From a virus, in the IMG/VR virus record IMGVR_UViG_3300021389_000072, positions 1 through 34,962 of that record: a stretch of 34,962 nucleotides of DNA, one strand, 5' to 3'. Under the pieces are notes generated by a model. It was not told the DNA's origin. It searched no databases and worked only from the letters and a program-made list of their open reading frames with translations. A program made the translations under genes and the position numbers. Positions 14,067 to 34,687 of the stretch are shown one piece after another; the first letter of the stretch is position 1, and every line of letters starts with the position of its first letter.

Positions 14067-14374
14067 GATGGATCCCCTTTGGCTTTGGCGAGTGCAGCTC
14101 GGCCTTTGTTGATAACAAGATTTGCGATGTCATCATCAGGACCGGTATGCAGTAACAACAAAGCTAAACTGTCATCCAATGCCTCAAGCAAATCAGGAGC
14201 AGCAGCGATTAGGTGGGCGTTTGCGTCACATTTATCACCACGAACATGGGCCTCCTGAATTTCAGAAAGAGTGGGGGTGAAGTAAACACGGCGAAAGGCA
14301 ATGCCTGTGCCACCTTCGTAACTCTCAAGCTGACCAATTTGCCAAGGCCCAGGTGTGTGTTTGGTTTCAGTCAT
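14063..14374 (-). CDS. Conserved phage protein of the HTPGPW / LIAAAPDLLEAL type
   Basis: The 103-residue product starts MTETKHTPGPW and contains DANAHLIAAAPDLLEALDD near the middle, then an acidic helix and a short Ala/Lys tail. This pairing of an N-terminal HTPGPW with a later ANAxLIAAAPxLLEAL is a widespread signature of small phage and prophage proteins of unknown function. The start has GAGGACC upstream and overlaps the preceding stop by 4 nt, so it is cotranslated with its neighbours. The family assignment is confident; the role is unknown. Confidence 0.75.
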   Translation of the reverse strand: MTETKHTPGPWQIGQLESYEGGTGIAFRRVYFTPTLSEIQEAHVRGDKCDANAHLIAAAPDLLEALDDSLALLLLHTGPDDDIANLVINKGRAALAKAKGDPS

Positions 14375-14556
14375 GATAGGTCCTCAACTTCGTCCCAAGT
14401 GATGCTGAGGGTTGAGGGGCTTTCTACTTTGGCAGCCCACACGTCGATAATGATCCCCTCATCGGTTACGTTGATGCAGACAGACGCTCTACTCAGAATG
14501 TCGATGTACATCCGTTCATCGTCGCTGCTTGCTTTATCTACTTGGAAGGTGGGCAT
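14371..14556 (-). CDS. Hypothetical acidic protein, 61 aa
   Basis: A small acidic protein with alternating hydrophobic residues suggesting a beta-rich fold (SVCINVTDEGIIIDVWAA) and an acidic C-terminus. AGGACCC precedes the ATG. The stop overlaps the next start by 4 nt and the gene itself overlaps the upstream gene by 19 nt, so the cluster is tightly packed. I recognise no family. Confidence 0.6.
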   Translation of the reverse strand: MPTFQVDKASSDDERMYIDILSRASVCINVTDEGIIIDVWAAKVESPSTLSITWDEVEDLS

Positions 14557-14777
14557 GATGGGTCCTCGACATATTTGAGTGCTGTTGAGAGGCGCTTCAC
14601 AAGCCTTTGGAGAGCTTTTTTGTGTTCTGCCGGTGGGATCAGTCCACGCATTTTCAGCCGGATTATCTCATCATGATCTCGCTGAAATGCTTCAGCATCC
14701 TTAGTATGAAGCTGCGGGAATTGATCTTTGATCTTTGGGGCAGCCCAACCAAGAATAACGTCTGTGGGTTCAGTCAT
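14538..14777 (-). CDS. Hypothetical protein, 79 aa
   Basis: A charged, helical protein (HDEIIRLKMRGLIPPAEHKKALQRLVKRL) with no catalytic motif. The ATG at 14777 is preceded by AGAGGAACC. It belongs to the packed minus-strand cluster downstream of the SSB/RuvC region. The function is unknown. Confidence 0.6.
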   Translation of the reverse strand: MTEPTDVILGWAAPKIKDQFPQLHTKDAEAFQRDHDEIIRLKMRGLIPPAEHKKALQRLVKRLSTALKYVEDPSCPPSK

Positions 14778-14794
14778 TTGGTTCCTCTTTTCTT

Positions 14795-14992
14795 TTAACC
14801 AATGGTCATGAAGGCAGAGCGACTACCCTTCTCAAATACATAGAGGCGGTAGCGCCCAAAATTGGTGGAATACGGTGGCTTCCAGATCAAACCTGTCCGA
14901 CGTTCCACTTCGTCTTGTCTGCCGTTGTACGTCTCTGTGTAGACGTTTTCTTTTGATGCAATTTCACGCACCACGATCTTGTATTCAGCCAC
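14795..14992 (-). CDS. Hypothetical protein, 65 aa, GTG start
   Basis: The only plausible start is GTG at 14992, just after GGGGAGAGCC. The product begins MAEYKIVVREIASKENVYTE and looks like a compact alpha/beta protein, with a Tyr/Arg-rich middle (FGRYRLYVFEKGSR). No family is recognised. It lies 73 bp after the preceding stop, a gap holding a strong hairpin at 15025-15057. Confidence 0.6.
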   Translation of the reverse strand: MAEYKIVVREIASKENVYTETYNGRQDEVERRTGLIWKPPYSTNFGRYRLYVFEKGSRSAFMTIG

Positions 14993-15024
14993 GGCTCTCC
15001 CCTTTCATGGGACAGGGATGGTCA

Positions 15025-17973: not shown

Positions 17974-20124
17974 CTAAGGAGACGCTTGGAGTTTGCGTGC
18001 AACCGTCACGAGGACAGTTTTACGCAATTCTTCGTCTGAAAGTTTGTTGGAAAGCTTCTTGTTAAAGCTCAAGACTTTTTCTTCAACTTCAGCGTAATCC
18101 ATACCGGCATCAACCAGAGCCAAGGCAAACTTAATGAACTGGTTGTTACGATTACCGTCACCGATACGTTGAGCGAACCAACGCTCCAGATTATCCAAGG
18201 ATTTGAGGTCGGCATTCTCTTTTTGGTACTCTTCGTTTTTGGTGGTCTTAGGGACGAAGGGCAGAATGTCGAGCATTTTGGTTCCTTGGCTGTAGTGATA
18301 CGAGCCTTTGTGGTTAGTCATCCACTTCTTGGCTCGCTGGTTAGACGTGTCGTCTGTGTCAAACGGCAACCACTGCATGAAATTGTTCATGAATTGACGA
18401 TACTCATCCTCATCAAGCTTGAGCTCGTAGTTCATGGGGATGATGAGACGAAACCGGTTAGAGTCTGGTGTGTGCCTCTTCGTCGTATAGGTCATGAAGA
18501 CAAACTCTTCGAGCAGCTCATGAACCATTTTAAGGGAAGCAGTCCCATCCACGTCGATGACAATCATATTGAATGTCGGGATGATGTTCTCGCCCAAACG
18601 GTGGTTGTGTTTGAAGTGGTGGTTACACCAGTGCATATCCTCAGCTTGTGTGAGGTTGTGCATCTCCGAAAAGCTCACCCGCTCTGGCTCATAGCCTTGT
18701 GCAAAGTGATCTGAATAGGAGACAACGATCTCTTCCAGACTTGTCTGCTTTAGGGTCTCCCCCAAGAAAAACTCGATGTTGTTTTCAAAGCGTTTCTTGA
18801 TAACGATATGCTGTTTGTAGCCCCAAGCCGTAGCCATGGAGAGCATCTCGTTCCGTGCTGTCTGTCCTGATTTGTAGAATGGTAATGCCTCAAACAAGTC
18901 CGAGTGCGTTACCTCAGTGTCCACAGCTGCGATGTAGCGTGCCAGTTTCATGTAGGATTTCTCCCGTGCCAGGATCTTCTGGAAAGCCAAACCGCTCTCC
19001 TCTACCAGCTTGATGGCTGGCAGTAGTTGGCTCATGTCCATGACAATCGCTTCATCTGAAAAAGCTAAAGCTCCTGCGAGCTTCAGTGCTTTGAAGTAGC
19101 GGTGGCGCATCTCGTTACGGCGGATTTCCTCGTGCTCTGGCATCTTGTTGGCCAAAGCCTCACAGTCGATCCGGTATTGGATGAGTGCAATCGCTACGTC
19201 GTCTGTAACCTCGATGTTCCATTTGAACTTCGATGGATCTGCCAAGGTCTCAAAGTGGGTCTCCCACTTGATTTCCATGTTCTGGGTCGAGACATCAACA
19301 AGCTCGTTGAAGATCTCTGTTGCAGTCAATCCTTCCCATGCAGGCTGAAGTTCACCCAAAGCAAACAAACACCGACGAGCGTAGCCGGTATCGAGCATTG
19401 TGTAGAATTTGTCTTCAGTGGATGCCCCGTCCAAAAGCTTGGTTGGGGTACCAAACATCAGGAGGTTTGCTGGGGTCTTACCCTCGATCTCCTTGGTTCG
19501 CTTGTTCTCATGGGAGTTCTTGGTGATCTTGTTCCTGACAAAACCTTGGTCATAAAGCTCCAAGTATGTAGTCAAGGCTTCGATAGATCCCTCAAGGTTG
19601 AGACCAATCTCGTCGATGAACAGGTTGAGAGAACCACAGCCTGCAATCAATGACTTCTGCCGGATCTGTTTAATGGCGGCCGATGAGCCCCCATCAAAAG
19701 AGAACGGGTACTCGCCGGTGGACTCGTACTCTTTGACAAGCAGATCTACTTCAAGCTGGTCTTCAGTGCCTTTTTGGGCAGCTCGCTGAATAGCAATCTT
19801 CCAAATATTGGTTTCAGCCAACACTGGGAGAGTGTGTTCCAGAAAAGTTTTACGGAAGCTGCGGGTGAACAGGTTCTCCAGCATGCCTACTGACCGGCCT
19901 TTGTTGGATCCAGATGGACCCAAGGCGATGGTGTAGGAGTTGACAGGGATGTCCCCCATGTCTGGGGTGCTCATAGTAGCCCGCATTGAGGAGGCCATCA
20001 TAGCGAGATAATAGGCGACGATGACGCGATAGAAACCCCGATCGACGTTCTGCGTCTTCTTGCAGATGACATCGGTGATCTCTTCGATTGCTGGGTGGTG
20101 TGATACGTTGCTGAGATCAACCAT
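17974..20124 (-). CDS. Replicative primase (AEP type) fused to an N-terminal P-loop domain
   Basis: I chose ATG 20124 (716 residues): AAGGA precedes it and it overlaps the upstream stop by only 8 nt. A GTG at 20175 would add 17 residues. The N-terminal part is a P-loop domain: GPSGSNKGRS (69-78) as Walker A and LNLFIDEI (166-173) as Walker B, resembling DUF3987/VirE-like helicase modules. The C-terminal part is an archaeo-eukaryotic primase fold: VIDVDG (D524/D526), then KRHTPDSNRFRLIIP with H551, then a helical PriCT-like end from GNRNNQFIKFALAL. It corresponds in position and size to the N4 gp43 primase. The order ATPase-then-primase is the reverse of many phage primase-helicases. It would prime DNA synthesis for the adjacent polymerase. 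Confidence 0.8.
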   Translation of the reverse strand: MVDLSNVSHHPAIEEITDVICKKTQNVDRGFYRVIVAYYLAMMASSMRATMSTPDMGDIPVNSYTIALGPSGSNKGRSVGMLENLFTRSFRKTFLEHTLPVLAETNIWKIAIQRAAQKGTEDQLEVDLLVKEYESTGEYPFSFDGGSSAAIKQIRQKSLIAGCGSLNLFIDEIGLNLEGSIEALTTYLELYDQGFVRNKITKNSHENKRTKEIEGKTPANLLMFGTPTKLLDGASTEDKFYTMLDTGYARRCLFALGELQPAWEGLTATEIFNELVDVSTQNMEIKWETHFETLADPSKFKWNIEVTDDVAIALIQYRIDCEALANKMPEHEEIRRNEMRHRYFKALKLAGALAFSDEAIVMDMSQLLPAIKLVEESGLAFQKILAREKSYMKLARYIAAVDTEVTHSDLFEALPFYKSGQTARNEMLSMATAWGYKQHIVIKKRFENNIEFFLGETLKQTSLEEIVVSYSDHFAQGYEPERVSFSEMHNLTQAEDMHWCNHHFKHNHRLGENIIPTFNMIVIDVDGTASLKMVHELLEEFVFMTYTTKRHTPDSNRFRLIIPMNYELKLDEDEYRQFMNNFMQWLPFDTDDTSNQRAKKWMTNHKGSYHYSQGTKMLDILPFVPKTTKNEEYQKENADLKSLDNLERWFAQRIGDGNRNNQFIKFALALVDAGMDYAEVEEKVLSFNKKLSNKLSDEELRKTVLVTVARKLQASP

Positions 20125-21076
20125 GTTCGTAAAGTTCCTTCTGAGTGCAAATTGCAAATGCTGGGCAATATCCACAGGCTTTAACTTTGCCAGGGATAGT
20201 GTGAACTACCCCCTTGCCAGCACTTGCCTGAAAAGCAATTGCATCAGAGAGGGAACTAAAATTACGGGTGGATCGACCATCCGTCTTGGCTGGATTGGCG
20301 TAGTATTTGTAAGAGGTTTCACCTCTCCACAGTTCTTCGTCTGTGCAAAATGGTAGAGCAGGCTCAGCCAGATCAGCATGAGCCTCCAGTACACGCAGCT
20401 TGGTTTTGATCCATGCCGAGGTCTCCTCTTCGGACATGAGCTCCACACGGTGCTCTTTGACGCGCTGTTGAGGGTATGCTGAGTTCTGTTTTGCCATCGC
20501 ACGAGACCAATCCGTGAAGATGAATTGGATATTCATGTGATCGGCTATGATCTTGTTAGGATTCAACCACTTATAGATGCTGCCTTGGAGACGATAATTT
20601 TCATCATTGGATCCATAGACCGCGGTATAGGCCGAGGTGCTCTTGAAGTCCTGAAGGACGCCTTCCAGCACCATGTCAAATTTACCAGAGATGGTGTATC
20701 CGCTTATCTCACGGCTGGAGCGTTGCTCCAACCAGACTTGGATATTCTCTGGATTTGGGTCTTTGGGATTGATCTCGATCTTGTCGATGATCTTCTGGGG
20801 GTATCCCAGTTTAGCCATGGAGGATTTGTAATCCTTTTTCCAGGCTTGCTCGATGCCGTCATGGATCGTGTGACCCAGACGAGATGCGATGTAATCTGTG
20901 ACATCTGGTGTCTCTTGCACAGCTTCGCTCAGACGCTCTTTTAAAAGGATCTGACGTACTGGTTTTAAGATAGATGTGGCGGAAATGGATCGACCCATTG
21001 CCGTGAAGTCATATCCATCAGCTGCCAGCCATACGGCAATAGGCAAGCTAACGCCGGTTACGTTGGTGAGGCGCAT
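20117..21076 (-). CDS. RecB/Cas4-like PD-(D/E)xK nuclease
   Basis: A 319-residue nuclease. The RecB-family motifs are H69 in RLGHTIHDGIE, then GKFDMVLEGVLQDFKSTS with D134, D143 and K145, and a QGSIYKWL helix (Q...Y motif). Near the C-terminus is a CGYCPAFAIC triplet of cysteines, recalling the iron-sulfur cluster of Cas4/AddB nucleases; a fourth cysteine could be in PALPFCTDEE. It lies between DNA polymerase and primase, the arrangement of the N4 replication block, and probably processes DNA ends. It starts at an ATG with AAAGGGG upstream and overlaps the primase start. Confidence 0.78.
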   Translation of the reverse strand: MRLTNVTGVSLPIAVWLAADGYDFTAMGRSISATSILKPVRQILLKERLSEAVQETPDVTDYIASRLGHTIHDGIEQAWKKDYKSSMAKLGYPQKIIDKIEINPKDPNPENIQVWLEQRSSREISGYTISGKFDMVLEGVLQDFKSTSAYTAVYGSNDENYRLQGSIYKWLNPNKIIADHMNIQFIFTDWSRAMAKQNSAYPQQRVKEHRVELMSEEETSAWIKTKLRVLEAHADLAEPALPFCTDEELWRGETSYKYYANPAKTDGRSTRNFSSLSDAIAFQASAGKGVVHTIPGKVKACGYCPAFAICTQKELYEHG

Positions 21077-26016: not shown

Positions 26017-26385
26017 CTATTTAGGGGTTGTGGCATCCACCCCCTCAGTGCGGTCATACGCTGGCGAAGGAGCCATCCATTTTTGTGGGGGAATGCCAAG
26101 GAGCCAATCAGAGACAGTGGGAATTTTGCCCCCAAAGTCTTCTTTGACATGCTGTTCCCCAATCAAACGGACGGGAATGTGTTTTCCATCCGAGTTGGTA
26201 ATTGTGATTCCAAATTTCTCTTCGGCCCAGAAGATACCCAACGAGTGGTGCCTCAAGGCTCTGTGTCTGAAATCTGCCATGTGAGCTTTGGTCTCGTCGA
26301 ACCAATCGTGGATAGCCTGGTAATCTGCTGGGGAACCACCAAAGCGGCGAGCAGAAGAAACAGCATGATGGTATGGATGTGCCAT
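26017..26385 (-). CDS. Conserved phage protein, DUF6915-like
   Basis: The 122-residue product begins MAHPYHHAVSSARRFGG and contains HDWFDETKAHMADFRHRALRHH, then RLIGEQHVKEDFGGKIPTVSDW. This His-rich pattern is very common in phages and prophages and corresponds, as I recall, to DUF6915. Many spaced histidines and acidic residues suggest metal binding, but no activity is established. Its start overlaps the upstream stop by one base (TGATG), so it is coupled to the DUF6878-like gene. Confidence 0.75.
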   Translation of the reverse strand: MAHPYHHAVSSARRFGGSPADYQAIHDWFDETKAHMADFRHRALRHHSLGIFWAEEKFGITITNSDGKHIPVRLIGEQHVKEDFGGKIPTVSDWLLGIPPQKWMAPSPAYDRTEGVDATTPK

Positions 26386-26711
26386 CAGAGCGTAACTTCT
26401 GCAAAATACTCAGTTTCGATATAATAAGTTCCGCCATTGACGGCGATTACGTCGTTGAAAGTATCCCACTCAACATCACCGAAGCCGCCTTCGTTGTTCA
26501 CGAAGCCTGGAATTACGCCGTCTAAGCACTGGAACACAAATTCTTCAGATTTGTTTTTGAGGTCTGTAGGTACGTCAGTGAATTCTTCTTCTCCGGCGTA
26601 GAAGCTAATTCTATCTATCCAACCAGAGTCCCCGCCTCCACTTATTTCAGCTGTTACTTTGGTGATGTTGAGTGCCAAAAGAGAGCCTTTTACTACTGCA
26701 CGATTTGTCAT
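26385..26711 (-). CDS. Conserved phage protein, DUF6878-like
   Basis: I place the start at ATG 26711 (AAGGAAAA upstream; 108 residues). A longer frame would run through the upstream gene with low-complexity sequence. The product has EISGGGDSGWIDRISF and, near the end, NNEGGFGDVEWD followed by two beta strands and EYFAEVTL. This GGGDSG plus GG-G-[DE] layout resembles DUF6878, a small family of unknown role in phages and plasmids. The assignment is by pattern only. Confidence 0.6.
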   Translation of the reverse strand: MTNRAVVKGSLLALNITKVTAEISGGGDSGWIDRISFYAGEEEFTDVPTDLKNKSEEFVFQCLDGVIPGFVNNEGGFGDVEWDTFNDVIAVNGGTYYIETEYFAEVTL

Positions 26712-27141: not shown

Positions 27142-27188
27142 AACAGTAAATGTGGGAAACTGAAACTACTACAAGGAGTTCTTTAAAC

Positions 27189-27923
27189 ATGTCTGTCATT
27201 ACCTTTGCCTCCACTAAGGGAGGTGCGGGCAAGACAACGTCAGCAATCATACTGGCTTCTGTGCTATCTAAGCACCACGATGTGACTGTGATAGATACAG
27301 ATCCGGCCAAAAGACTGATGTCTTGGTCCGAAAAAGCAACTCTCCCAATGCGGTTGAATGTTATCGCGTCTGGGGGTGAGAGAGATATCCATGATGAGAT
27401 CGAGTTGGCTCATAAAGTCTCTGATTACGTGATTATTGATCTTGAGGGTGCTGCCACCCGCCTCAACGCATTTGCTATGGGGGAGAGTGATCTGGTGGTC
27501 GTTCCCATGGGGGATGAACAACCGGATGCTGAAGGCGCCATTGAGACGCTCGCACAGCTGGCTCTGGAGGCGAGGAACATGCGTCGGGAGATACCGGTGA
27601 GGATCTTGTTCACTCGCACTCAGGCGGCCGTGAAATCACGTATGGCGAAGTCTTTGAACCAACAGGTCCGAGACAAGATTGGGAGCTTCTCAACTGAGCT
27701 ACATGCCCGGACTGCCTTCTCTTCGCTGCACAATATGGGAGGCACCCTGTATGACATGGATCCTCTGTTAGTTGGTGGTCTCGAGAAGGCTCTAGGGAAT
27801 GCAGAGCTGTTTGCTGAAGAACTCAAAATGGTCATGAGATGTATTCATCAGCTGCGTGAACAGCACGGGAAGAAGACATCACTGAAAGAGAAGTTAGGAG
27901 CACGCCATGTCACGAAAGCTTGA
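27189..27923 (+). CDS. parA: ParA-family partition ATPase
   Basis: I choose ATG 27189 (AAGGAG 10 bases upstream; 244 residues) rather than the ATG 39 bases earlier. The deviant Walker A is KGGAGKTT (10-17), followed by VIDTDP (D36/D38) and DYVIIDLEGA (D84), all hallmarks of ParA/Soj ATPases. It lacks an N-terminal DNA-binding domain, fitting the short ParA (ParF-like, type Ib) class that works with a small partner. Such proteins pattern the nucleoid and move plasmid copies to daughter cells. It overlaps the following gene by 17 nt. Together they form a plus-strand island within minus-strand genes. Its presence in an N4-like phage suggests extrachromosomal maintenance. Confidence 0.88.
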   Translation: MSVITFASTKGGAGKTTSAIILASVLSKHHDVTVIDTDPAKRLMSWSEKATLPMRLNVIASGGERDIHDEIELAHKVSDYVIIDLEGAATRLNAFAMGESDLVVVPMGDEQPDAEGAIETLAQLALEARNMRREIPVRILFTRTQAAVKSRMAKSLNQQVRDKIGSFSTELHARTAFSSLHNMGGTLYDMDPLLVGGLEKALGNAELFAEELKMVMRCIHQLREQHGKKTSLKEKLGARHVTKA

Positions 27924-28146
27924 TTTTGCCCCATTAGAAGAAGCAGAAAAAGACATGGGGACTCGTCGTCGGTGGAAGAGCCGTGATCCAAACCCTACGG
28001 TTCAGATGTCTCTACGCATGCCTGAAGCCACATATGAGAAGTTTCGGGATCAGTGCCTCAAAGAGCGCTACACCAATGGCGAGATGCTCGAGAAGATGAT
28101 GAACTTTTACCTCAAGCACTATAAAGCAGGGACTCTCGATTCTTAA
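27907..28146 (+). CDS. Small DNA-binding partition partner (ribbon-helix-helix-like)
   Basis: A basic 79-residue protein encoded directly after, and overlapping, parA. A disordered basic N-terminus (TRRRWKSRDPNP) leads into VQMSLRMPEATYEKFRDQC (about 32-50), a strand-helix pattern typical of ribbon-helix-helix proteins, then a second helix NGEMLEKMMNFYLKHY. This organisation is like ParG/CopG-type centromere-binding proteins that partner short ParA ATPases and repress their own operon. The fold is inferred from pattern. GGAG lies a few bases before the ATG. Confidence 0.7.
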   Translation: MSRKLDFAPLEEAEKDMGTRRRWKSRDPNPTVQMSLRMPEATYEKFRDQCLKERYTNGEMLEKMMNFYLKHYKAGTLDS

Positions 28147-28414: not shown

Positions 28415-28579
28415 GACTCACTCCTTTCTTTTTATATTCAAATTTCTAAGATTCAGAGGCAGAATCCCCCAATTATCTCAATAGGTTACAGACCCAACTA
28501 TCATGTAATTGGGGGGAACCATCAGGTAATTGGGGAATACTGTCAGGGATTTGGGGGTGAAGTATCAGGTTTTTGGGGA
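28415..28579. other. Candidate iteron-type replication origin
   Basis: This 165-bp gap contains an AT-rich stretch (about 28424-28460, with TTTTTATATTCAAATTTC), an inverted repeat unit at 28465-28480, and four direct iteron-like repeats. The combination of AT-rich DNA next to 21-22 bp-phased repeats is the usual design of an origin used by Rep_3-type initiators, and such an initiator is encoded 4.3 kb away. I do not see a convincing DnaA box. Origin function is inferred. Confidence 0.6.
28500..28579 (+). repeat. Four iteron-like direct repeats
   Basis: The repeats are ATCATGTAATTGGGGG (28500-28515), ATCAGGTAATTGGGGA (28521-28536), GTCAGGGATTTGGGGG (28542-28557) and ATCAGGTTTTTGGGGA (28564-28579). 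The start-to-start spacing is 21, 21 and 22 bp, about two helical turns, so all face the same side of the DNA. The consensus is RTCAKGKWWTTGGGGR. A related unit in opposite orientation (TAATTGGGGGA on the minus strand) lies at 28465-28475. The fourth copy is identical to a site upstream of rep. Confidence 0.85.
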
Positions 28580-31484: not shown

Positions 31485-31742
31485 TCATTTGTTTTGAGCT
31501 TGCTCGTAAGCGGTCCACGCAGCTTCTTTGTCATTAATGGGGTCTGAAACAATTTTGGGAGGGAACTCTGCTTCATAAGCGATACGTGCTTGTTGGCGGA
31601 TTTCTCTGACTTCAAGGCCCACTGCATTGATTAAAGAGTAGATTTGAACCATGTCTTCGTTTTTGACCCAAAGTCTTGGTAATGGCCTGAAACCTGCATC
31701 CCTAAGGGCTTGGGCTGCATTTGGTGTTGTTATGTCGTACAA
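31485..31742 (-). CDS. Hypothetical protein, 85 aa, TTG start
   Basis: No ATG is available at the N-terminus. TTG 31742 has AAAGGA 9 bases upstream and gives MYDITTPNAAQALRDAGFRPLPRLWVKNEDMVQIYSL. The LPRLWV-x-x-E-D-M segment followed by EVREIRQQARIAYEAEF resembles short phage proteins of unknown function. It overlaps the upstream gene by 41 nt in another frame, which is unusually long for this cluster. Confidence 0.5.
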   Translation of the reverse strand: MYDITTPNAAQALRDAGFRPLPRLWVKNEDMVQIYSLINAVGLEVREIRQQARIAYEAEFPPKIVSDPINDKEAAWTAYEQAQNK

Positions 31743-31980
31743 GGATCTGTTCCTTTATATGGTCACTGTTCTCGTCGTAGAGGTCGATGATGATGGAACG
31801 GGTGAACTCAGCAATTGTCATATTCTCGGGAATTTGGTCTAAGAACCAACTGGCAACACCAGGAGATTGGTTCTCTAGTTCTGTGAGCATTTTAGTGACG
31901 TTGCCGATGTAGCGGTGTTTGGGGTGCCAAGGATTTAACAACCGCCTTTTAATAGGGGAAGTTTCTCTAGGTTTAGGCAT
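31702..31980 (-). CDS. Hypothetical protein, paralogue of the gene at 34212-34442
   Basis: The start is ATG 31980 (MPKPRETSPIKRR, with AAGGAA upstream), not the further upstream frame. The core IGNVTKMLTELENQSPGVASWFLDQIPENMTIAEF aligns with IKMGAVRQMLIELEETTPGAAHWALDQVLPDGEF in the protein encoded at 34212-34442. The two are related small proteins (basic N-terminus, ML-x-ELE-x-x-[ST]PG-x-A-x-W-x-LDQ core). No function is known. It is the first gene downstream of rep. Confidence 0.6.
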   Translation of the reverse strand: MPKPRETSPIKRRLLNPWHPKHRYIGNVTKMLTELENQSPGVASWFLDQIPENMTIAEFTRSIIIDLYDENSDHIKEQILVRHNNTKCSPSP

Positions 31981-32021
31981 TTTAGAGATTCCTTGATTTG
32001 CTTTGTGGTTTGGTACGATAG

Positions 32022-32032
32022 CACACCACACC
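32022..32032 (+). promoter_or_regulatory. CACACCACACC element in reverse orientation after rep
   Basis: An exact copy of the element reading on the plus strand, in the 68-bp gap between rep and the following gene. There is no plus-strand gene downstream, so here it may serve as part of an inverted site or a terminator-like feature rather than a promoter. Confidence 0.35.
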
Positions 32033-32048
32033 AAAAAAGTTAAATAAA

Positions 32049-32897
32049 TCAGCTTCTCTTTGTCAACCGGCTCTCACTAGGGGAGGGCTCAATGACGTAT
32101 TCAGCTTGATCAGAGATACGGGCTTTACGGCCGATACGAGATTTGTGAATCTCACGCCAGGCTGCCTTGTTTTCTTCTAAGGATTTGTTCCACCAACCAA
32201 TATGGATATGTGTGACTTTTCTTCCAGTTTTAACTGGTAGAATGGTGATATTGAAGGGAGCCAAGGCATTGAGCTCACGCACTACAGGCTTGATAACAGC
32301 ATGGTTCAAATGCCCAAAAGTCTGATAGTTCGTTTTCTCTACTCCGAGCAACTCCCTGAATTCATCTAGTGTGAGCTTCTGTGTGGTCTTCACAGTAAGG
32401 CCAGCCCACTGAGAGACATTCTCATAAAGAGAGATCCCATATTTGGAGGAGATACTCATCAAGACAGGGAGTGAGATCTTTCCCCAAATCTCTGATTTTT
32501 GAAGGATTTCCACCAGACGTTTATCAAAGCTGTAGGTGAGCACGCCAGCCGGTCGGGTATGACTATCTATGTCATTACCCCCAAGGAACTGCACACGACG
32601 TGTGGAGCCATCTGGGAGCTGCATAATGATGAGGGTCTTCATCAGGGTGATGACGGCTTCTTCCACAGACTCATAGCCCTTGTGGGCGCCTGGAATAAGT
32701 TCTTCTATTTCAATCGTGTAGTCTTTGCCTTCTTGGATCCCCTGTCGGTGGGCATTATGCCATAGCACCGTGATGGATCTGCGAGCATTCAAAGACAGTT
32801 CTTCATGGCCGGTCACTTGGATCAGCTCTGAAGGTTTATTGGCTTGGTCCCTTCGAGGGGAAAGATCCAAGACCTTGTATGTGATTTTTTGCTCCAT
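32049..32897 (-). CDS. Rep_3-superfamily plasmid replication initiator
   Basis: This 282-residue protein has the tandem winged-helix layout of iteron-binding initiators (RepB/RepE/Pi family). The first half includes LSLNARRSITVLWHNA and PAGVLTYSFDKRLVEILQ. The diagnostic second half has SKYGISLYENVSQW (151-164), LTLDEFRELLGV (175-186), FGHLNHAVIKPVVRELN (194-210) and GRKVTHIHIGW (225-235). A basic tail ends the protein, and length is normal for the family. Such proteins bind iterons to open a plasmid origin and repress their own gene. Upstream, an 8-bp inverted repeat and an exact copy of iteron 4 overlap the expected promoter; the ribosome binding site is weak. The iterons are 4.3 kb away instead of adjacent. 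Confidence 0.87.
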   Translation of the reverse strand: MEQKITYKVLDLSPRRDQANKPSELIQVTGHEELSLNARRSITVLWHNAHRQGIQEGKDYTIEIEELIPGAHKGYESVEEAVITLMKTLIIMQLPDGSTRRVQFLGGNDIDSHTRPAGVLTYSFDKRLVEILQKSEIWGKISLPVLMSISSKYGISLYENVSQWAGLTVKTTQKLTLDEFRELLGVEKTNYQTFGHLNHAVIKPVVRELNALAPFNITILPVKTGRKVTHIHIGWWNKSLEENKAAWREIHKSRIGRKARISDQAEYVIEPSPSESRLTKRS

Positions 32898-32909: not shown

Positions 32910-32951
32910 GGGGAGCCAATCAAAAAATGAAAGGCTCCCCAAAAACCTGAT
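32910..32951. promoter_or_regulatory. Rep operator: inverted repeat plus an iteron copy
   Basis: GGGGAGCC (32910-32917) and GGCTCCCC (32933-32940) form a dyad with a 15-bp AT-rich spacer immediately upstream of rep. TCCCCAAAAACCTGAT (32936-32951) is the exact reverse complement of iteron 4 at 28564-28579. In the Rep_3 family such inverted iteron-like sites bind Rep dimers and repress rep. The hairpin may also act as a weak terminator for the gene upstream. Confidence 0.7.
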
Positions 32952-32953
32952 AG

Positions 32954-33148
32954 TTAGGTCTTAACCTCACCCTGTACAGGCGTATTTTTAGGAAAGGAGT
33001 CCCAGTTACGGCCAAGTGGGCCTTGATTTGGTTTAGTACCAACAGCAGTTTTGGAGCTTCTCTTAAACCACATGGATCCAGATGAGACCGTAAATGAAGC
33101 CCCTATTTCTAGCTCCCCAAAGGTTGTTTGCTTGATTGCATAATTCAT
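32954..33148 (-). CDS. Small hypothetical protein, 64 aa
   Basis: The ATG at 33148 overlaps the thyX stop by 4 nt, with GGAAGGAAA upstream. The product has FGELEIGASFTVSSGSMWFKRSSKTAVG, a short beta-rich pattern (L-x-x-G-x-x-F ... W-x-K-x-S-x-x-x-A) common in small phage proteins. A Pro/Asn-rich tail follows. The function is unknown. Confidence 0.6.
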   Translation of the reverse strand: MNYAIKQTTFGELEIGASFTVSSGSMWFKRSSKTAVGTKPNQGPLGRNWDSFPKNTPVQGEVKT

Positions 33149-33960
33149 TCAATTTCCTTCCTGAATTGGTTCCAGCCTGTGAAGTTACCCCAGAGATGGC
33201 GAAGGCTACTATCAGGAGCACTGGCGGACGCTTGATGCTCAAAAGGAGACATGTGCTCCATATCCAAGAGCATTTTACCCAGAGTCATATTGCTTTCGCG
33301 GGATGGTGTTTGACCATCATGAGTCAGGTAAGACACCCGAGCGCACATGGCTGCGTCTTGAACCATGAGGTTGTGTAGGCCGTATGGGGTGAGTGTATCC
33401 TCCAGCAGAGCATCATCTGTGTAAGGCAGGTGATGTGTCCGAGGTGTTGCTTTGGTATGGGCATACTCAGCAAACATTGCGTCTGCCAAAGCTTTCATCG
33501 TTGGATCCGCTGCTGGGTGACACCGTAGAGCAAAGAAGTTATCCCACTCTGTGGCCGTGACAATCACAGAGATATGGCTGAAAGGCTCCAAGATCCGGTT
33601 AATGATCTGTTTGTGAGCCCCAGCTGCTTCCATCTGACGGGCATGAAACACAGCATCCTGTGCAGCTTTAAGCCACATGTTCTGGACACGGCGTGCCTCT
33701 TCTTGGCTCAGATCTTCAGAGGCTTGCATCCCTTTTTGGTTCTTACCCCAAGAGACAGGCATTGCTGGATCATCCAACACTTCTTTAATGATTTTATTGA
33801 CCGGCACAGCACGGCTGCTTGAGGCATTCCGGCTGAAGACACGGTGCGTCATGAACTCGGCATGAATGAACCGTGGATATCGCAGTTGAAACGAGGTGAT
33901 GATGCTGTCGGAATCCGTAGGGTTTGAGGACTTCTTCAGGATTTTGACTGAGATACTCAT
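33145..33960 (-). CDS. thyX: Flavin-dependent thymidylate synthase ThyX
   Basis: A 271-residue protein that would make dTMP from dUMP using FAD, NADPH and methylenetetrahydrofolate. The ThyX signature appears as FMTHRVFSRNASSSRAVP (T38-H39-R40 onward), a variant of RHRxxSxNExSxRY with Thr for the first Arg and Ala for Glu. Further support comes from FSHISVIVTATEWDNFFALRCHPAADPTMKALA, which matches the C-terminal ThyX core (W-x-x-F-x-x-L-R). Phage copies of this type occur in N4-like roseophages as I recall. It fits with the dCTP deaminase encoded 0.75 kb upstream: together they supply dUMP and dTMP for phage DNA. Confidence 0.9.
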   Translation of the reverse strand: MSISVKILKKSSNPTDSDSIITSFQLRYPRFIHAEFMTHRVFSRNASSSRAVPVNKIIKEVLDDPAMPVSWGKNQKGMQASEDLSQEEARRVQNMWLKAAQDAVFHARQMEAAGAHKQIINRILEPFSHISVIVTATEWDNFFALRCHPAADPTMKALADAMFAEYAHTKATPRTHHLPYTDDALLEDTLTPYGLHNLMVQDAAMCARVSYLTHDGQTPSRESNMTLGKMLLDMEHMSPFEHQASASAPDSSLRHLWGNFTGWNQFRKEIE

Positions 33961-33963
33961 GGC

Positions 33964-34164
33964 TCAGACTTTCTTTCCATAAGAGGCCAGCAAGAGGTTG
34001 AGTTCTTTTTCAAGCAAGGGTTTTGAAAAAGCTTGGTTGGTGTGATGAAGTTCGGAACAGATCTGAACCATACTTGCTCCTGCTTTGGACAAAGTAAGCG
34101 CATAGGAATTCAGAGTGTTGTTGCGAGTGCCTGTTTGAACAGACGAAAATGTTTGTTGATCCAT
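33964..34164 (-). CDS. Stand-alone primase C-terminal (PriCT-like) helical domain, 66 aa
   Basis: The ATG at 34164 has AGGAG upstream. The product aligns with the last helices of this phage's own primase: GTRNNTLNSYALTLSKAGAS here against GNRNNQFIKFALALVDAGMD there, and both continue to a conserved Asn, then S-x-x-L and an E-L pair. This G-x-RNN pattern is typical of the helical domain that ends many phage primase-polymerases. As a free 66-residue protein it could modulate the primase or bind its template. Origin by partial duplication or by transfer cannot be told apart. Confidence 0.6.
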   Translation of the reverse strand: MDQQTFSSVQTGTRNNTLNSYALTLSKAGASMVQICSELHHTNQAFSKPLLEKELNLLLASYGKKV

Positions 34165-34211
34165 TTTGGATGAGCTCCTGAAAATATGTGAAAAAGCGCG
34201 CAGCAGCTGGT

Positions 34212-34442
34212 CTACGGCCTGCCTTTGAGAGTCCGTTTCTTTTTATAGTCGTGATAGGCATTGAGGATGAGGTCTTGGACAGCGTCTACAAACTCCCCAT
34301 CAGGAAGCACTTGATCCAAAGCCCAATGAGCAGCACCTGGAGTGGTTTCTTCCAGTTCGATTAGCATTTGGCGAACTGCCCCCATCTTTATGTAGGAGCC
34401 TCCACGAACACGGGATTTGATAGATATGAGTTTAGAGGCCAT
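34212..34442 (-). CDS. Hypothetical protein, paralogue of the gene at 31702-31980
   Basis: A 76-residue protein with a basic N-terminus (MASKLISIKSRVRGGSYIKM), the core MLIELEETTPGAAHWALDQV shared with the protein at 31702-31980, and a basic end (DYKKKRTLKGRP). It could be a nucleic-acid-binding or adaptor protein, but no family is recognised. It lies 2 bp downstream of the acyl carrier protein gene. Confidence 0.6.
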   Translation of the reverse strand: MASKLISIKSRVRGGSYIKMGAVRQMLIELEETTPGAAHWALDQVLPDGEFVDAVQDLILNAYHDYKKKRTLKGRP

Positions 34443-34444
34443 GG

Positions 34445-34687
34445 TTATGCCCCCTGCGTTAGACGCTCAATCAGTTGGATCAGGTCGCCAAATGTTTGAG
34501 CGTCTTCCATCTCAACATCAGAGATTTCGACCTCAAACTCTTCTTCAAGGCCCATACAGATCTCGATCGTATCCAAACTATCAAGACCACAATCGTTGAT
34601 GAGGTTACTGCCATCATGCAGATCCTCTGTAGAGAGATTTGTAATTTCAGAAATAACGGAACGGATACGATTAGGGATGTTGTGCAT
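34445..34687 (-). CDS. Acyl carrier protein
   Basis: An 80-residue acidic protein with the phosphopantetheine attachment motif NDCGLDSLDTIEI (Ser37) and the standard ACP layout: helix I (IPNRIRSVISEIT), a loop to DSL, helix II ending in LEEEFEVEI, and helix IV (TFGDLIQLIERLT). Length and charge match bacterial AcpP. It should be modifiable by the host holo-ACP synthase. Carriage by a phage is uncommon. It lies 23 bp after the dCTP deaminase gene, in the nucleotide-metabolism end of the operon, with no acyl-using enzyme in the window. Confidence 0.9.
   Translation of the reverse strand: MHNIPNRIRSVISEITNLSTEDLHDGSNLINDCGLDSLDTIEICMGLEEEFEVEISDVEMEDAQTFGDLIQLIERLTQGA

Follow-up and report, generated by a model that had tools for sequence, protein, structure and literature searches.

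A stand-alone PriCT_1 helix-bundle protein beside an intact primase in an N4-like phage with a plasmid replication module

The window analysed here, a virus record in its entirety (IMGVR_UViG_3300021389_000072; 34,962 bases), encodes a 66-residue protein made up of a stand-alone PriCT_1 helix-bundle domain. The protein is homologous to the C-terminus of N4 gp43-type primases and we tentatively favour, as the leading reading, an action in trans on priming. In archaeo-eukaryotic primases, initiation is under the control of helix-bundle domains, which almost without exception form part of the enzyme itself. The free bundle of this phage, found in nature next to an intact primase, offers a ready test of action or interference in trans, and the phage belongs to an N4-like lineage with a plasmid replication and partition module, in which control of phage priming would matter. 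The features first concerned are:

33964..34164 (-), free-standing PriCT_1 (primase helix-bundle) protein, 66 aa (PF08708, phrog_2135, hhalign, AF2)
17974..20175 (-), the phage's own N4 gp43-type primase, intact (phrog_2135, 1048.6 bits over 18-730)
18013..18174 (-), PriCT_1 domain fused to the phage's own primase (PF08708, E 1.3e-9, 33.2 bits)

Identity and predicted fold of the 66-residue protein

By its gene content, the phage is N4-like (Schitoviridae). It carries a giant virion RNA polymerase (3854 aa; phrog_2206, 1628 bits), the N4-type replication genes for the gp42 exonuclease (phrog_2139), the gp43 primase (phrog_2135) and the polymerase (phrog_17), and an ssDNA-annealing gene of N4 type. 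Its primase is 59-60% identical to primases of Schitoviridae isolates. Since this enzyme retains its own PriCT_1, the free PriCT_1 is an extra domain and not the split-off half that completes a split enzyme; a split primase, with the free domain replacing a lost one, is ruled out on the same ground.

The open reading frame runs from an ATG start to a TGA stop. A Pfam profile search placed PF08708 (PriCT_1) at residues 8-65 (E 4.5e-7; 29.8 bits, the curated cut-off being 21.1 bits), so that the domain spans nearly the whole length with nothing attached to it. Residues 6-65 match the C-terminus of phrog_2135, the N4 gp43-type primase family, at profile positions 649-709 of 713 (E 1.7e-7). Against the phage's own primase, 14 of 47 residues are identical (30%; pairwise E 3e-5). 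Profile-profile comparison, proposed as a check when the similarity was first noticed, detected it readily: hhalign against a profile of 53 N4-type primase C-termini gave a probability of 96.4 and an E of 1e-9. With a profile built from seven N4-type primase tails, the protein scored 36.0 bits, the best of 20,000 shuffles of its residues reaching 14.2 bits. The first-pass annotation had stated that the protein aligns with the end of the primase, and on this PF08708, the phrog_2135 C-terminus, hhalign and the shuffles concur.

The resemblance is concentrated where primases are conserved. Of the 15 primase columns with 90% conservation or more, ten are kept, compared with seven of the 43 other columns (Fisher p 5e-4). 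The motif G-x-R-N-N, A, L, N, E is retained, the conserved positions being G12, R14, N15, N16, A22, L25, G29, N43, L50 and E54. The protein corresponds to the C-terminal ~60 residues of primases and ends where they end; it lacks a catalytic domain, and the in-frame sequence upstream contains no primase-like residues. Nor does the protein have the LDNLERWF lead-in found ahead of PriCT_1 in nearly all primases. Motif, length and predicted three-helix fold are thus common to the free protein and the PriCT_1 (PF08708) of N4 gp43-type primases, whereas the primase domain is fused to a catalytic domain and preceded by the LDNLERWF lead-in, and the free one has neither. The 66-residue protein is a PriCT_1 domain protein and not a primase, and the domain assignment, made from sequence, is secure.

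AlphaFold2 predicts helices at residues 3-27, 32-44 and 52-65 (mean pLDDT 83) and the same three-helix arrangement for the tail of the phage's primase (pLDDT 85). The small all-helical bundle of PriCT_1 is thus predicted for the free protein too, and differing folds, which would have spoken against the homology, did not appear. A search of a viral structure library with the free domain returned primases as top matches. Among PDB folds, its first match was 3vw4, a weak one (prob 0.63, TMq 0.57; Z 4.8); this entry is the origin-bound DNA-binding region of ColE2-P9 Rep (PriCT-1 plus HTH). That Rep has an HTH and the phage protein does not. The primase tail matched 3vw4 (Z 6.2) and residues 225-301 of RepB' (3h20; Z 5.6). 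PriX was not among the fold matches of the free domain in the PDB fold searches, in which matches were weak throughout, as expected for a small bundle of only 66 helical residues. A profile-based sequence search of the PDB gave no match. The shortness of the protein and its ~30% identity could suggest a small helical ORF that resembles PriCT_1 by chance; with profile methods, shuffles and predicted fold all concordant, such a coincidence is extremely improbable. The first-pass description of a separated PriCT-like domain is likewise backed by the sequence profile, the profile-profile comparison and the predicted fold.

Rarity and origin of the free domain

A search with PF08708 of about 100 phage records and some 640 bacterial genomes found no second stand-alone PriCT_1. 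The viral set comprised 49 records chosen by thyX or primase, 48 N4-like records (28 of them >70 kb), six related phages and six isolates, lists that overlap to give about 100 distinct records; the bacterial set combined samples of 244 and 398 genomes, at least three of which are shared. Every N4-like record searched had a single match above the PF08708 cut-off, within the primase. The only other match in these records, a 118-aa frame in one of them (G687), scored 11.1 bits, below the cut-off, and is likely to be noise. In both bacterial samples, no match above the cut-off came from an open frame shorter than 266 aa. Searches with the free protein itself found no close relatives among the IMG/VR viral contigs searched, only primases in phage records and nothing in plasmids. 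A comparable short phage protein is A0A836USN8 of Enterococcus phage Entfac.YE1, annotated 'Primase C-terminal 1 domain-containing protein'. Its predicted fold is similar to that of the free PriCT_1 (TMq 0.74; 28% identity), but at 141 aa it is twice as long and it belongs to a different phage group; the record of Enterococcus phage EF-P29 contained no PriCT_1. As the searches were of samples and this 141-aa protein is on record, short PriCT proteins count as rare, not as unique.

The free domain was first described as a copy of the end of the phage's own primase. Homology to that end holds, but a recent or close copy does not: over the alignment, the free domain is 21-32% identical to primase tails and 25% to that of its own phage, and in a tree it groups with none of the primase tails but lies outside them, on a branch so long as to preclude placement, while the phage's own primase clusters with those of its sister phages. 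A recent duplication of the phage's own primase tail is ruled out by the ~30% identity and the tree position. The homology is to the PriCT_1 of N4-type primases as a whole. A bacterial PriCT protein is a less likely source; a profile of N4-type tails gave 25.9 bits for the free copy and at most 10.8 bits for bacterial PriCT proteins. Because the latter fit the profile worse, descent from an N4-type primase, long ago or by way of another phage, appears the likeliest origin.

Gene neighbourhood and expression

The gene lies in a block (acp-ORF76-PriCT-thyX-ORF64) that stands between dcd and rep in the window:

34445..34687 (-), acyl carrier protein gene, in the PriCT-thyX block (PF00550, E 8.7e-14)
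34212..34442 (-), 76-aa ORF, upstream of PriCT within the block; paralogue of 31702-32034 (BLASTP E 3e-10)
34175..34179 (-), ribosome-binding site AGGAG, 10 nt before the PriCT ATG (from sequence)
33145..33960 (-), thyX, translationally coupled to the PriCT gene (Thy1 PF02511, E 1.2e-13; phrog_85, E 2e-67)
32954..33148 (-), 64-aa ORF sharing 4 nt (ATGA) with the end of thyX (ORF list)
32049..32897 (-), Rep_3 plasmid replication initiator (PF21205, E 3.1e-17; PF01051, E 1.1e-8)

The neighbourhood of rep and ThyX noted in the first-pass annotation is as described. Small paralogous ORFs (34212-34442 and 31702-32034; 36% over 44 aa) flank the PriCT-thyX-rep stretch.

The PriCT ORF looks translated. 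Its codon score is 0.17 in the annotated frame, compared with at most 0.08 in the other five frames, and is below that of core genes. The junction with thyX reads TGA-GCC-ATG, both genes being in one frame with a single stop codon between them, and the PriCT protein is probably made from one message with thyX, to judge from this arrangement; the 64-aa ORF at 32954-33148 is likely to belong to one operon with thyX. Recoding of the stop codon to give a PriCT-ThyX fusion is not favoured; TGA terminates many long genes in this phage.

This coupling in the same frame, the 4 nt that thyX shares with the next ORF and the presence of dcd within the same gene run would suit a docking or coupling factor, a helix bundle that pairs with co-translated ThyX and ties thymidylate synthesis to the replisome. 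Such a role is unlikely, however: a shared frame is expected by chance in one case out of three, neighbouring phage genes are commonly coupled, a free PriCT was found in none of the 45 thyX-bearing records searched, and the literature consulted gave no precedent.

In two related phages identified through ParA, G732 (70.7 kb) and G004, rep and dcd are adjacent and enclose neither thyX nor acp nor PriCT, and thyX lies elsewhere in both. The acp-PriCT-thyX block is therefore variable, being absent between dcd and rep in relatives that span that place. The main rival to a trans-acting helix bundle arises here, namely that the ORF is a relic: a foreign N4-type primase gene of which recombination left just the 3' end, along with the acp-thyX block, perhaps translated, but functionless. 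A relic would account for an ORF that comprises just the last ~60 primase residues and stops at the primase end, for the lack of a second case in the records examined, for the absence of the block in the related phages and for a codon score under that of core genes. Against it stand a good ribosome-binding site and a rightly placed ATG, an upstream frame without primase-like residues, and conserved motif positions kept at ~30% identity, which drift would not have spared. We regard a relic as possible but doubtful.

As a separate observation, thyX stands at a different place with respect to rep and dcd in each of three sequences, the window, G004 (locus L251) and G732 (locus L248), and the thyX genes of the latter two are 35-38% identical to that of the window; this suggests that thyX has been gained or moved repeatedly in related phages. 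Elsewhere in the window, 26018-26706 and 14075-14998 have the character of small-gene insertions: relatives that align well on both sides lack these stretches or carry other sequence in their place.

Proposed action on priming and the plasmid module

In the trans-acting reading, the free bundle would bind the single-stranded template together with the initiating nucleotide or the 5' end of the primer, and would thereby modulate the phage primase, either as a competitor or, like archaeal PriX, as an additional subunit for initiation; its effect could be stimulation or inhibition. Nucleic acid or nucleotide binding and action on the primase are proposed here by analogy with better known bundles. 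The helix bundle of pRN1 binds the template and two NTPs and hands both to the catalytic domain (PMC11009956), and that of RepB' alone binds ssiA DNA at 27 uM (PMC4434180). When a helix bundle is mutated, initiation suffers and polymerase activity can increase (PMC8718748). PriX is a separate primase subunit with a nucleotide site required for initiation (PMC5700102), and PriCT-1, PriCT-2, PriL and PriX are regarded as related (PMC5862659).

The isolated bundles of pRN1 ORF904 and RSF1010 RepB' are the same kind of domain as the free PriCT_1 and bind DNA alone, pRN1 also NTPs, but they are laboratory fragments of one protein, whereas the phage bundle is a natural separate gene. The arrangement can also be compared with that of PriX of Sulfolobus/Saccharolobus, a proposed PriCT-1 relative (PMC5862659) in which a helix bundle beside an AEP primase likewise has its own gene; the phage ORF, as modelled, would be such a bundle. 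PriX, however, supplies the initiation bundle that its primase requires, whereas the phage primase already has one. When the separated domains of pRN1 were mixed, no primase activity was obtained, which was ascribed to lost local concentration (PMC8076596); a free bundle would therefore need a contact of its own to the primase. The absence of the LDNLERWF lead-in of primase tails, the lack of an orthologue of the free protein in the records searched and the weakness of the structural matches also weigh against a trans-acting bundle.

The phage carries, besides Rep_3, the following elements of a plasmid:

28496..28578 (+), four 21-bp iteron-like repeats, core TCAGGTAATTGGGG (TRF score 80)
27150..27923 (+), ParA partition ATPase (phrog_164, E 3.4e-26)

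A plasmid initiator, iteron-like repeats and a partition ATPase, features expected of a phage-plasmid, are found together in a phage genome. Rep_3 is up to 65% identical to alphaproteobacterial plasmid Reps, which suggests an alphaproteobacterial host, perhaps of the Rhodobacterales. Iteron-like matches number eight in the window, with 0.86 expected, and one site (32937-32950) lies some 40 bp upstream of rep; in most of the plasmid and genome loci examined, homologous rep genes are accompanied by similar arrays of 21-bp units with the core TGAGG-GGGG. Sister phages (G732, i.e. L239, IMGVR_UViG_3300025645_000002, 70,741 bases; L238; L240; and G004, i.e. L237) also combine an N4-type primase with ParA and Rep_3, so that the plasmid module is a lineage trait and not the chimeric assembly of one contig.

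With Rep_3, iterons and ParA present, and with a fold that resembles, weakly, the origin-bound PriCT region of ColE2 Rep, the free bundle might be a factor that switches between lytic replication (phage primase and polymerase) and plasmid replication (Rep_3 at iterons), damping the phage primase or helping at the plasmid origin. We consider this quite unlikely: PriCT is coupled to thyX and not to rep, rep has its own iteron-like upstream site (32937-32950), and the relatives G732 (70.7 kb) and G004 (18 kb) have ParA and Rep_3 but no free-standing PriCT, from which it follows that the plasmid module does not need one. A fuller version of the trans-acting reading, in which the bundle, as a virus-borne equivalent of PriX, regulates the primase of the phage and possibly restrains lytic replication during Rep_3/iteron plasmid upkeep, would likewise be an unlikely outcome.

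N4-like phages are described as lytic, some of them integrating, and the word 'plasmid' is absent from a survey of the group (PMC10654107). The present phage is N4-like, yet has what looks like a full plasmid module of iterons, Rep_3, ParA and a small ORF that follows parA within 27150-28146.
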